Part shown: one piece after another, positions 16,734 through 56,401 of the stretch
Position numbering within the stretch: the first letter of the stretch is position 1
Layout: every line of letters starts with the position of its first letter
Origin: Pseudomonas viciae
Lineage (GTDB): Bacteria; Pseudomonadota; Gammaproteobacteria; Pseudomonadales; Pseudomonadaceae
NCBI RefSeq assembly: GCF_004786035.1
Contig: NZ_CP035088.1
Span: 2,206,001 to 2,270,000, forward strand
DNA: 64,000 nucleotides
Reading direction: 5' to 3'
Translations under genes and position numbers: made by a program
Notes under the pieces: model-generated
Told to the model about the DNA's origin: nothing
The model's database searches: none
The model's input: the letters and a program-made list of their open reading frames with translations, nothing else

Positions 16734-17828
16734 ATGCAACTCAATCGATTGATGATCAGCGTCGCCGCATTGCTGGCTCTTGCCGGTTGTGGCAGTCGCC
16801 AGGTCCAGGAACCTGAACGCCAGCCCGCCGAGGTCAAGAGGCAGATCGTGCGGTTGCTGCCGGCCAAGACTGCGGATCGCGAAGGTTGGGCGACTGACAT
16901 TTATGTGGCCTTCGCGGCTCAGCAGATCCCAACCACGACGCAGAATATCTGTGCGGTCCTGGCTGTGACCGAACAGGAATCGACGTTCCAGGCAGATCCG
17001 GCGGTGCCGGGGCTGGGCAAGATCGCTCGGCAGGAGATCAACCGCCGTGCGGCGAAGGTACACATTCCGCAGTTGTTGGTCAGCGGCGCACTGGAGGTGC
17101 GTTCGCCCAACGGCAAGAGCTACAGCGACCGGCTCGACGCGGCGCGTAGCGAGAAGGCGTTGAGTGAGATTTTCGATGATTTCATCGGCACGGTGCCGTT
17201 GGGCAAAACGCTGTTCGACGGCTTCAATCCGGTACACACGGGCGGACCGATGCAGGTCAGCATCGCCTTTGCCCAGGACAATGCCCGGGACTATCCCTAC
17301 ACGGTGGATGGCTCGATTCGTCGTGAAGTGTTCAGTCGTCGTGGCGGGATGTATTTCGGTATCGCACATTTGCTCGGCTATCCGGTGAGCTATACCGAGC
17401 CGTTGTATCGTTTTGCCGATTTCAATGCCGGGTGGTACGCCAGTCGCAACGCCGCTTTCCAGCATGCGGTGAGCCGGGCCTCAGGCATTTCCCTGGCGCT
17501 GGACGGGGATTTGATTCTGCCGGGTTCCATCATGCCGGGCAGCACGGAGCTGGCGGTGCGTACGTTGGGCAAGTCGCTGGGGATGCGCAACCCGACCATT
17601 CGCGATCAGTTGGAGCTGGGTGATAGTCTCGCGTTCGAAGACAGCAAGCTCTACAAGCGCGTGTTCGAATTGGCTGAGCGGGCCGAGGGCAAGCGGTTGC
17701 CGCGAGCGGTATTGCCGGGAATCGTGCTCAAGAGCCCGAAGATCACTCGCAAGCTGACCACGGCGTGGTTTGCCAAGCGGGTGGATGAGCGTTATCAGCG
17801 GTGCATGGCACGGGCGGCGGGGCGCTAG
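16734..17828 (+). CDS. DUF1615 family lipoprotein
   Basis: The 364-residue protein starts with a lipoprotein signal (MQLNRLMISVAALLALAGC, lipobox LAGC with the lipidated Cys19). The body matches the DUF1615 family: AVTEQESTFQADPAVPGLGKIARQEI near residue 80 and GGPMQVSIAFAQ near 170. The EQESTF and GGPMQV segments recall lysozyme-like or transglycosylase folds, though no activity is established. It is likely outer-membrane anchored. A bidirectional terminator follows at 17845-17874. Confidence 0.82.
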   Translation: MQLNRLMISVAALLALAGCGSRQVQEPERQPAEVKRQIVRLLPAKTADREGWATDIYVAFAAQQIPTTTQNICAVLAVTEQESTFQADPAVPGLGKIARQEINRRAAKVHIPQLLVSGALEVRSPNGKSYSDRLDAARSEKALSEIFDDFIGTVPLGKTLFDGFNPVHTGGPMQVSIAFAQDNARDYPYTVDGSIRREVFSRRGGMYFGIAHLLGYPVSYTEPLYRFADFNAGWYASRNAAFQHAVSRASGISLALDGDLILPGSIMPGSTELAVRTLGKSLGMRNPTIRDQLELGDSLAFEDSKLYKRVFELAERAEGKRLPRAVLPGIVLKSPKITRKLTTAWFAKRVDERYQRCMARAAGR

Positions 17829-17844
17829 GTAAACCTGGCCCATG

Positions 17845-17874
17845 AAAAAGCCCGGTGGATGAGACCGGGCTTTT
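17845..17874. terminator. Bidirectional rho-independent terminator
   Basis: AAAAAGCCCGGT...ACCGGGCTTTTA forms a stem flanked by A and T tracts. It ends both the DUF1615 gene and the convergent repeat-protein gene. Confidence 0.85.
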
Positions 17875-17925
17875 ATTGCGATGGGGCTGGTTCGGCAGAC
17901 GATTGAAGCGTTGTGGTTGAACAAC

Positions 17926-18516
17926 TCATACACGGTTTTCGATCAGGCGATCAGAGCCACCTTCAGCGACGCGACGTTCCAGCAGACGATCAGCACCGCC
18001 TTCGGCAACACGGTTTTCGATCAGGCGATCAGAGCCACCTTCAGCAACACGACGTTCCAGCAGACGATCAGCACCGCCTTCGGCAACGCGGTTTTCGATC
18101 AGGCGATCAGAGCCACCTTCAGCAACACGACGTTCCAGCAGACGATCAGCACCGCCTTCGGCAACACGGTTTTCGATCAGGCGATCAGAGCCACCTTCAG
18201 CGACGCGGCGTTCCAGCAGACGATCAGCACCGCCTTCGGCAACACGGTTTTCGATCAGGCGATCAGAGCCACCTTCAGCGACGCGACGTTCCAGCAGACG
18301 ATCAGCACCGCCTTCGGCAACACGGTTTTCGATCAGGCGATCGGAACCACCTTCAGCGACGCGACGTTCCAGCAAGCGATCAGCACCGCCTTCGGCAACG
18401 CGATTTTCAATCAATCGATCAGAGCCGCCTTCGGCGACGACGGGTTGGGAGGAGGCGGCGAATACGTTGGCGGCCAGGACAGAGAAAGCGACGCTGAGGA
18501 TGATTTGGCGTTTCAT
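17926..18516 (-). CDS. Secreted protein made of thirteen 13-residue repeats, function unknown
   Basis: Read from ATG 18516 (MKRQIILSVAFSVLAANVFA, a signal peptide), the 196-residue product is almost entirely repeats. After ASSQP come 13 units alternating between VAEGGSDRLIENR (7 copies) and VAEGGADRLLERR (6 copies), ending RV-stop. The pattern of charged and small residues with spaced Leu/Ile suggests a repetitive helical or solenoid structure exported to the periplasm or outside. There are no cysteines in the mature part. At DNA level the repeats are nearly identical, so the number of copies probably varies between strains. I do not know a function. Confidence 0.82.
   Translation of the reverse strand: MKRQIILSVAFSVLAANVFAASSQPVVAEGGSDRLIENRVAEGGADRLLERRVAEGGSDRLIENRVAEGGADRLLERRVAEGGSDRLIENRVAEGGADRLLERRVAEGGSDRLIENRVAEGGADRLLERRVAEGGSDRLIENRVAEGGADRLLERRVAEGGSDRLIENRVAEGGADRLLERRVAEGGSDRLIENRV
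17932..18438. repeat. Tandem 78-bp repeat array within the secreted repeat gene
   Basis: The motif beginning (A/G)CGGTTTTCGATCAGGCGATC recurs at 17932, 18010, 18088, 18166, 18244 and 18322, exactly 78 bp apart, with a diverged copy at 18400. Each 78-bp unit is made of two 39-bp halves. Differences are a few bases per unit, which indicates recent expansion or homogenisation. Confidence 0.92.
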
Positions 18517-18710
18517 GATGGTGTGCTCCGGGGATGCTGTTGGTTTGTGTGGGGCCATTGTTGCGCCGGGGGATTATCAAGAGAACTTCATTGACGTGAT
18601 GGTGAACATCGACGGCAGTGATAGCTCGTTGGTCCGCTACCGGCCAGCTTGATGGAACACTGATGGGGCCGCGGGCTCTACCGGCTACCCCTTATGCTGG
18701 AGGCAAGTTC

Positions 18711-19340
18711 ATGTATCAGTTATTCGGCCACAGCCAATCCGGTTCTTCGGCGGTGGAGATTGCCCTGCGTCTATGTGACGTGGCTTATCGCCGGATCGAT
18801 GCCTATTCCACCGAAGACAGCGACGCGGCGAAAGAACTCGAGGCATTGAACCCTCAGAAGCAGGTTCCGACCCTGCAGTTGCCGGACGGCTCGGTGCTGA
18901 CCGAAGCCGCAGCGATCCTGATTCATCTCGGGCTGACCTATCCAGAGTCGAAGTTGCTGCCTGATGACCCCGCGCAGCGCGCACAAGCCATACGCGGCCT
19001 GGTCTATATCGCCGCCAATTGCTATACGCCCATCGGCATCATTGATTTTCCGGAACGCTGGCTGGCCGATGCGGACGAGGCAACCCGGCAGCAATTGGTC
19101 GCGGGCACCCGGCAACGGCTGTATCGCAACTGGGCGCTGTTTGCCGACCAGTTCCCGGCCCGACCTTTTCTCAGCGGTGCCGAGCCGGGTGCGCTGGATA
19201 TCCTGGCCGCCGTGATCTCCAAGTGGAGCGGCACGCGGGAGGCGCTGATAGGCGCCCGTCCTGAGTTCTACGGGCTATTGGAGCGCATTGACCACCATCC
19301 GCGCATCGCACCAGTGCTGTCGCTGCATTGGCCCGGGTGA
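18711..19340 (+). CDS. Glutathione S-transferase family protein
   Basis: From ATG 18711 (GGAG 8 bp upstream) the product is 209 residues. The N-terminal thioredoxin-like domain has MYQLFGHSQSGSSAVEIALRL, the cis-proline motif KQVPTLQLPDGSVLTEAAAILIHL and a helical C-terminal domain with ALDILAAVISKW. It lacks the NPNNKIP signature of the other GST at 13815, so it is a separate subclass. The substrate is unknown. It converges with the pqi operon. Confidence 0.87.
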   Translation: MYQLFGHSQSGSSAVEIALRLCDVAYRRIDAYSTEDSDAAKELEALNPQKQVPTLQLPDGSVLTEAAAILIHLGLTYPESKLLPDDPAQRAQAIRGLVYIAANCYTPIGIIDFPERWLADADEATRQQLVAGTRQRLYRNWALFADQFPARPFLSGAEPGALDILAAVISKWSGTREALIGARPEFYGLLERIDHHPRIAPVLSLHWPG

Positions 19341-56000: not shown

Positions 56001-56023
56001 CATCAATTAACGAGGTGAATGAA

Positions 56024-56401
56024 ATGGCTAACACAGGAAATAACAATCCTGGCAATTTCGCTAACGATCGTGAGAAGGCCTCGCAAGCTGGGAAGAAAGG
56101 CGGCCAAGCCTCGGGTGGCAACTTCGCCAACGACCCGGAGCGCGCATCCGAGGCCGGACGCAAGGGTGGGCAAGCCTCGGGCGGCAATTTCGCCAACGAC
56201 CCAGGACGTGCCGCAGAGGCCGGCCGCAAAGGCGGGCAGGCCTCGGGGGGCAATTTTGCCAAAGATCCGGAACGCGCCTCTGAAGCGGGGCGTAAAGGCG
56301 GCCAAGCCTCCGGTGGCAACGTAGCCAACGACCGTGAGCAAGCCAGCGATGCCGGTCGAAAAGGCAGTGGAAACAGTCAGGGGGGAGGGCGTAAATCGTA
56401 A
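56024..56401 (+). CDS. KGG-repeat stress protein (con-10/GsiB-like)
   Basis: From ATG 56024 the 125-residue hydrophilic protein consists of about five 22-residue repeats of the type ASEAGRKGGQASGGNFANDP. This is the KGG stress-protein motif found in conidiation protein 10 and Bacillus GsiB. There are no hydrophobic segments or cysteines. Such proteins resemble LEA-type protectants induced by general stress or desiccation. GAGGTG lies 7 bp before the start. Confidence 0.9.
   Translation: MANTGNNNPGNFANDREKASQAGKKGGQASGGNFANDPERASEAGRKGGQASGGNFANDPGRAAEAGRKGGQASGGNFAKDPERASEAGRKGGQASGGNVANDREQASDAGRKGSGNSQGGGRKS

Follow-up and report, generated by a model that had tools for sequence, protein, structure and literature searches.

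Within the window, a stretch of 64,000 nucleotides from Pseudomonas viciae, one open reading frame (ORF) encodes a protein that is made almost wholly of a single short repeat, which raises the question of whether it is a genuine gene and, if so, when its product is made and what such a protein might do. The sequence-only reading had described a secreted repeat protein, and this description stands, as the ORF occupies exactly positions 17926–18516 on the minus strand and encodes a signal peptide followed by 13 units (Table 1). The N-terminal segment resembles a Sec signal peptide, with a KR n-region, a hydrophobic core and an AxA-type end (judged by eye), which backs the earlier claim of export at the level of sequence, and the protein is almost certainly exported. 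The mature part consists of 13 complete VAEGG(S/A)DRL(I/L)E(N/R)R units followed by a final V. It has no membrane anchor or lipobox discernible by eye and is most likely soluble and periplasmic. The gene is solitary, flanked by a DUF1615 gene in convergent orientation and a glutathione S-transferase (GST)-like gene in divergent orientation; an ABC auxiliary lipoprotein gene is also found in its neighborhood, and no phage genes were seen among the neighbors inspected. An automated scan for sigma-70 promoters and terminators listed nothing at the locus.

Table 1. Features of the repeat-gene locus, with positions in the window and the basis of each assignment
Feature	Positions	Strand	Basis
CDS of predicted exported tandem-repeat protein, 196 aa	17926..18516	-	ORF list and translation; frame under purifying selection
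Predicted signal peptide MKRQIILSVAFSVLAANVFA, residues 1-20	18457..18516	-	by eye from translation; kept in relatives
13 complete 13-residue units, 39 bp each, alternating forms, 78-bp period	17932..18438	-	
Shine-Dalgarno-like GGAG, 9 nt 5' of ATG	18526..18529	-	sequence; conserved in locus alignment
Probable bidirectional terminator, inverted repeat AAGCCCGGT/ACCGGGCTT with A and T runs	17845..17876	.	by eye
DUF1615 protein gene, convergent neighbor, outside the repeat-gene unit	16734..17828	+	
GST-like gene, divergent neighbor, marker of the syntenic locus	18711..19340	+	
Putative MexT-type nod box ATCACTGCCGTCGATGTTCACCAT (ATCA-N5-GTCGAT-N4-ACYAT)	18599..18622	-	genome and genus pattern searches
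Wider promoter footprint TATCAC...CAATGAAGTTCTC	18581..18623	-	19-locus alignment; similar before paralogues elsewhere

The array (17930–18439) was resolved by Tandem Repeats Finder into 6.5 copies with a period of 78, 95% matches and zero indels. At the DNA level, units two steps apart (lag 2) share a mean identity of 0.951 and adjacent units (lag 1) only 0.718, so two unit forms alternate, as had been read directly from the 78-bp tandem repeats. On the opposite strand, a plus-strand ORF (17881–18594) is open across 237 codons with a Pseudomonas-like codon-position GC, and a gene caller could choose it wrongly. One could therefore propose that this plus-strand ORF is the gene, or that the array is neutral or has its role at the DNA level, with an incidental protein. 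The pattern of variation argues otherwise. A total of 445 units were collected from 43 related sequences (a set in which the window is counted twice and a few genomes are apparently duplicated). Read in the minus frame, their entropy is 0.33 bits at the first codon position, 0.16 bits at the second and 1.01 bits at the third, and the units comprise 59 distinct amino-acid forms and 307 distinct DNA forms, with Ala2 and Gly5 of the unit invariant. As the variation is concentrated at the third codon positions of this frame, these data show that the minus-strand ORF encodes a genuine protein under selection. A DNA-only or neutral role is further disfavored by the signal peptide, ribosome site and promoter footprint, which are conserved in step across relatives, and by a paralogue that retains the same peptide motif with different synonymous codons. 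The probability that we leave to a DNA-level or neutral role, or to a plus-strand gene, is negligible.

The number of units changes fast between close relatives. A search based on the GST neighbor gave 31 loci, and the repeat gene was sought in 26 of them (L052–L077, with L078–L082 outside this set). It was present on the expected side in 18 and was not found at the other eight (L061, in which a contig end is close, L070–L072 and L074–L077). Two of the 18 (L060 and L062) have runs of N within the array and were omitted from the counts; the array is 5 to 12 units long in the 16 readable relatives, compared with 13 units in the window. P. brassicacearum, P. kilonensis, P. thivervalensis, P. corrugata and P. 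mediterranea are among the relatives with names, so the window probably derives from near this group. Among 28 loci, there are 31 pairs with more than 90% flank identity, and the unit number differs in 22 of them; three of the 31 have identical flanks, presumably because a single genome is present in two collections, and some redundancy of this kind affects other pairs as well. At third positions, units of one locus are more alike (identity 0.73) than units of different loci (0.59), which indicates concerted evolution, with units homogenized within each locus. A comparison of repeat number across related Pseudomonas had been proposed as a check on recent expansion and copy-number variation, and both are upheld by it at the level of differences between species.

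Relatives of the protein are widespread in the genus. A protein search returned 368 of them among 7997 scored candidates; within the 120 among the matches listed, those with names are mostly from Pseudomonas and several are called 'phage infection protein'. Matches at E 1e-4 or better occur in 285 of 298 Pseudomonas genomes, with up to 10 per genome, some of which overlap within one gene. In an order-wide sample of 115 genomes, three match at E 1e-8 or better, all of them Pseudomonadaceae, and one further listed Pseudomonadaceae genome gave no match at this threshold. Among the names seen, a family so widespread in Pseudomonas carried only misleading or empty ones. The P. viciae genome contains five further members or relatives (L047–L051). 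In L047 (5515–5958), the gene for a paralogue of nine VAEGGSDRL-type units follows a co-oriented Ohr gene at a distance of 33 bp, an arrangement that suggests a peroxide-controlled copy. The L048 paralogue has AADGSDRT units. In L049 (5420–5752), a single AEGGGDR module is fused to DUF2790 and the gene adjoins a copper-ATPase-like gene (by eye); DUF2790 genes are lanthanide-responsive in P. alloputida KT2440 (PMC11520305). L050 has AEDGYDRT units and is located downstream of a DUF2790 gene, and L051 has AEDGFDRT units and does not match NF041599, the model of the PtrA N-terminal domain; Phe or Tyr is present in the unit of both.

The most informative part of the locus, which was missing from the earlier reading, is a conserved regulatory box approximately 80 bp upstream of the start codon. 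It is embedded in a 43-bp footprint that hardly varies across an alignment of 19 loci and is seen again upstream of most repeat genes from the genus search (the exceptions are L022, L029 and L032). We take this element to be a MexT nod box, of which the N4-ACYAT part and the GT were reportedly described by Tian et al. in 2009. The MexT consensus is printed as ATYA(N7)YGAT (PMC11432991), and this nod box is present upstream of the repeat gene. The only perfect match in the 6.7-Mb P. viciae genome is the repeat-gene promoter. When one mismatch is allowed, four matches are obtained (the window, the region before L048, and L085 and L086 elsewhere), compared with one for the reversed control, and the relaxed pattern ATYA-N7-YGAT-N4-ACYAT occurs twice in 6.7 Mb, each time upstream of a repeat-family gene, whereas its reversed control does not occur. 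Of the five further members or relatives of the family in P. viciae, four do not have the box.

Across the genus, the perfect box was found in 135 of 298 genomes, with the reversed control at zero in each row of the search. Among 30 of these box loci, a repeat-family gene is located downstream in 18 by pattern and diverged repeat members were recognized by eye in three more (L096, L100 and L104); the others have a short unrelated ORF (six loci), a lipoprotein gene beside a MexT-like gene (L105 and L107) or an ArsR-OYE pair (one locus). In the family-wide sample, the perfect box is present in 54 of 198 genomes (reversed control, 1), and 29 of the loci were inspected. A repeat gene follows in 11 and a diverged one in L149, ten have an ArsR-like gene and then an MFS-like (nine) or OYE-like (one) gene, and L129 resembles these ArsR-type loci by promoter alone. 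Three loci have a luciferase-like monooxygenase gene (L124, L125 and L128; by eye), and in the remaining ones the box precedes a short unrelated ORF, lies within a hisD-like frame or is followed by nothing sensible (one locus each). The types of downstream genes were assigned by eye, with ArsR checked in L134 and L093 and OYE in L093. Seven loci (L090, L097, L110, L112, L113, L114 and L130) have the box before a short ORF with an SFPVFGSNYY-like motif; in the three that were read more widely (L097, L110 and L112) a lipoprotein gene is located upstream, and in L097 and L112 a 2Fe-2S-type gene is located downstream. In L105 and L107, the box lies directly behind the MexT-like LysR gene and before the lipoprotein gene, and the flank starts with an apparent catalase-peroxidase.

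The P. viciae genome contains two MexT-like genes that could encode the regulator reading the box. The first, L118, adjoins a quinone-oxidoreductase-like gene, just as mexT adjoins mexS; the quinone-oxidoreductase match of this neighbor is below the cut-off. The second, L117, is a close MexT paralogue located beside DoxX and alpha/beta-hydrolase genes. The regulatory domains of both match PDB entry 6l33, 'MexT protein' (E 5e-111 for L118 and 6e-92 for L117), and neither LysR gene is named above cut-off by NCBIfam (the best model is BsrA, 180–185 bits versus 480). As a redox-responsive regulator, MexT reacts to electrophilic and nitrosative stress, and it controls pyeRM-xenB, which encodes an ArsR repressor, an MFS transporter and a xenobiotic reductase (PMC7950407). 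As pyeRM-xenB is a published MexT target, the occurrence of the box before pyeRM-like operons in other genomes provides an independent calibration of the box. The pyeRM-like operon of P. viciae itself (L152, a pyeR-like gene followed by an MFS-like gene) does not have the box, the best relaxed match within 300 bp having three mismatches, and for this reason we lowered our estimate of MexT-type control slightly, from very likely to likely. The repeat gene likely belongs to a MexT-type regulon.

The absence of the box from L152 also favors a reader other than MexT, i.e. an envelope stress protein of the kind proposed below that is controlled by another LysR protein, for example the L117 paralogue. 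L117 is closely related to MexT, and in two other genomes (L105 and L107) the box is located directly behind a gene of the L117 type. When P. fluorescens In5 faces Rhizoctonia, a gene annotated as 'Phage infection protein' (AL066_13550) is up 32-fold, and azoreductases, a glutathionyl-hydroquinone reductase, an alpha/beta hydrolase and a DoxX gene rise with it (PMC5557065), the last two being of the types that adjoin L117. The name of AL066_13550 suggests that it belongs to the repeat family. However, the box fits the published MexT consensus (PMC11432991), and its position before pyeRM-like operons in other genomes favors MexT as the reader, so that control by a non-MexT LysR protein is considered a sizable but clearly lesser possibility.

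Among the Pfam and NCBIfam models, one match is above its cut-off. NF041599 of NCBIfam scores 102 bits against the repeat protein (cut-off 31), summed over 13 stretches, the best of which scores 18.6 bits and covers positions 7–30 of 46, short of a full-length match in a single stretch. The DUF2790-type relative L049, by comparison, matches the model over 1–46 with 79 bits. As the score of the repeat protein is a sum of 13 weak stretches, it indicates a shared AEGGxDR module only, and the protein was not filed as PtrA. The two other NCBIfam matches are far below their cut-offs, the single Pfam match is also below cut-off, and a sequence search of the PDB gave nothing below E 0.39. The earlier statement that the protein has no assigned function was therefore nearly right: the family search that had been recommended found NF041599, which matches only through the short module. 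The AEGGSDRL peptide and the term 'co-regulatory protein PtrA' were both absent from the open-licence literature searched.

PtrA (PA2808) of P. aeruginosa is described as periplasmic and induced by Cu and also by Zn (PMC8872213, PMC7744410, PMC8531726). A periplasmic copper/zinc buffer of this kind, induced through CopRS or CzcRS, would be in line with the total NF041599 score and with the copper-ATPase-like gene next to the single-module relative L049. It would fit the repeat protein poorly, however. Cys, His and Met are all missing from the mature protein, so that soft-metal binding would depend on carboxylates alone, the best NF041599 stretch covers only part of the model, and the gene has a MexT-type box upstream and the DUF1615 and GST genes as its nearest neighbors. 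We consider a metal buffer unlikely.

The label 'phage infection protein' on several relatives would instead point to a surface, matrix or phage-adsorption protein, the roles about which the sequence-only reading had speculated. Surface proteins often contain tandem repeats of variable number, and three PHROGs families match the repeat protein below E 0.001 (the best is phrog_8058, 4.7e-8, 34 bits). All three are of unassigned function, though, and no stretch passes alone, as expected for a low-complexity repeat; PADLOC gave nothing below E 0.029. Neither Pfam nor NCBIfam contains an adhesin model that matches the protein, which argues against a surface role, as do the lack of a visible anchor or lipobox and of phage genes among the neighbors inspected. 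The label has no visible basis, these roles found no real support, and we regard them as quite improbable.

The composition of the mature protein is extreme. It uses twelve kinds of residues, with 18% Arg and 14.8% Gly, and contains no Cys, His, Met, Trp, Phe, Tyr, Lys or Thr; each of the first seven makes up less than 1% of the repeat region in the 120 sequences among the matches listed. This make-up suits an oxidizing, electrophile-rich envelope, though the absence of these residues from a short unit may be due to chance, as a 13-residue unit without C, H, M, W, F, Y and K is expected in approximately 1 of 10 cases (a hand estimate from average frequencies), and the L050 and L051 paralogues do have Tyr or Phe in theirs. 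Structure prediction, another check that had been proposed, was run and produced low-confidence models only. With an alignment of 31 sequences, AlphaFold2 reached a pLDDT of 42.5, and with the lone sequence it reached a pLDDT of 54.4 and a pTM of 0.29, with a row of 13 short helices, twelve of which are ten residues long. Foldseek comparison of the lone-sequence model with the PDB gave nothing below E 0.6. Given this low confidence and the lack of a Foldseek match, no fold is claimed. Two candidate descriptions were not supported. An amphipathic helix is not indicated, as the helix moment of the unit is no higher than that of shuffles. Hydrophilins are defined by more than 6% Gly and a hydrophilicity over 1, and the repeat protein has the Gly content but not the hydrophilicity (GRAVY −0.71).

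The explanation that we favor, with moderate confidence, is that of an exported low-complexity repeat protein under MexT-type LysR control in electrophile, disulfide or oxidant stress. Under such stress, MexT or a close paralogue would bind the box and activate the repeat gene. The product would be exported, most likely to the periplasm, as a soluble, low-complexity, flexible or weakly helical protein, and, when abundant, it could shield envelope components or take up reactive compounds, with the number of units setting the dose per molecule. The L047 paralogue near the Ohr gene and the rise of AL066_13550 along with azoreductases and a glutathionyl-hydroquinone reductase in P. fluorescens In5 were counted in support of the stress reading. 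As there is no confident fold and the missing reactive residues may reflect chance, the Arg/Glu/Gly-rich protective filler is only a best guess, which we offer tentatively and with less support than control by a MexT-type regulator. A generalization to the family is similarly tentative: the exported repeat proteins of Pseudomonadaceae may be dose-tunable envelope protectants in which an AEGGxDR-type module has been multiplied and evolves fast, with several copies per genome placed on different stress circuits (the MexT-type box for electrophiles, the Ohr operon for organic peroxides, and copper genes for PtrA-type relatives). If this is true, the unit number would set the protective capacity, which could shift quickly. 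The new element is regulatory, as the MexT-type box would tie the repeat family to a well-studied, efflux-controlling stress regulon. This link gives a first idea of when the protein is made and renders the function of the family directly testable, and the locus offers a tandem repeat that changes quickly in nature and whose output is probably linked to stress.

Several known systems share features with the repeat protein. RTX proteins also have GG and D-x-L inside their repeat. However, the RTX nonapeptide is GGxGxDxUx, whereas the protein described here has a 13-residue period with GG(S/A)DRL and thus differs from the RTX pattern; no RTX model of Pfam or NCBIfam matches it. The KGG stress-induced repeat proteins (PF10685) similarly consist of short tandem repeats of low complexity and are linked to stress by name. 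The window contains one of them, a 128-aa protein of KGGQASGGNFANDPERASEAGR repeats (56015–56401, plus strand), but the motif is different and the KGG ORF has no apparent signal peptide. PtrA, which was compared through the NF041599 model rather than the PA2808 sequence, is also a small exported protein with a signal peptide and an AEGGxDR-type module. In contrast to PtrA, the repeat protein has 13 tandem units, and its gene has a MexT-type box rather than the reported CopR/CzcR control and no adjacent copper genes (neighbors of the copRS/PA2807 type were not found in the gene list, inspected by eye). A regulatory resemblance exists to the MexT regulon of P. aeruginosa (mexEF-oprN, pyeRM-xenB, PA2486/ptrC, PA4881 and other small hypothetical proteins), with which the repeat gene shares the type of nod box, a regulator of the same class in the P. 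viciae genome and the theme of stress. In the open-licence literature searched, neither a repeat protein of this type among the described MexT targets nor a link between the repeat family and MexT was found; the P. aeruginosa regulon already includes several small uncharacterized proteins.
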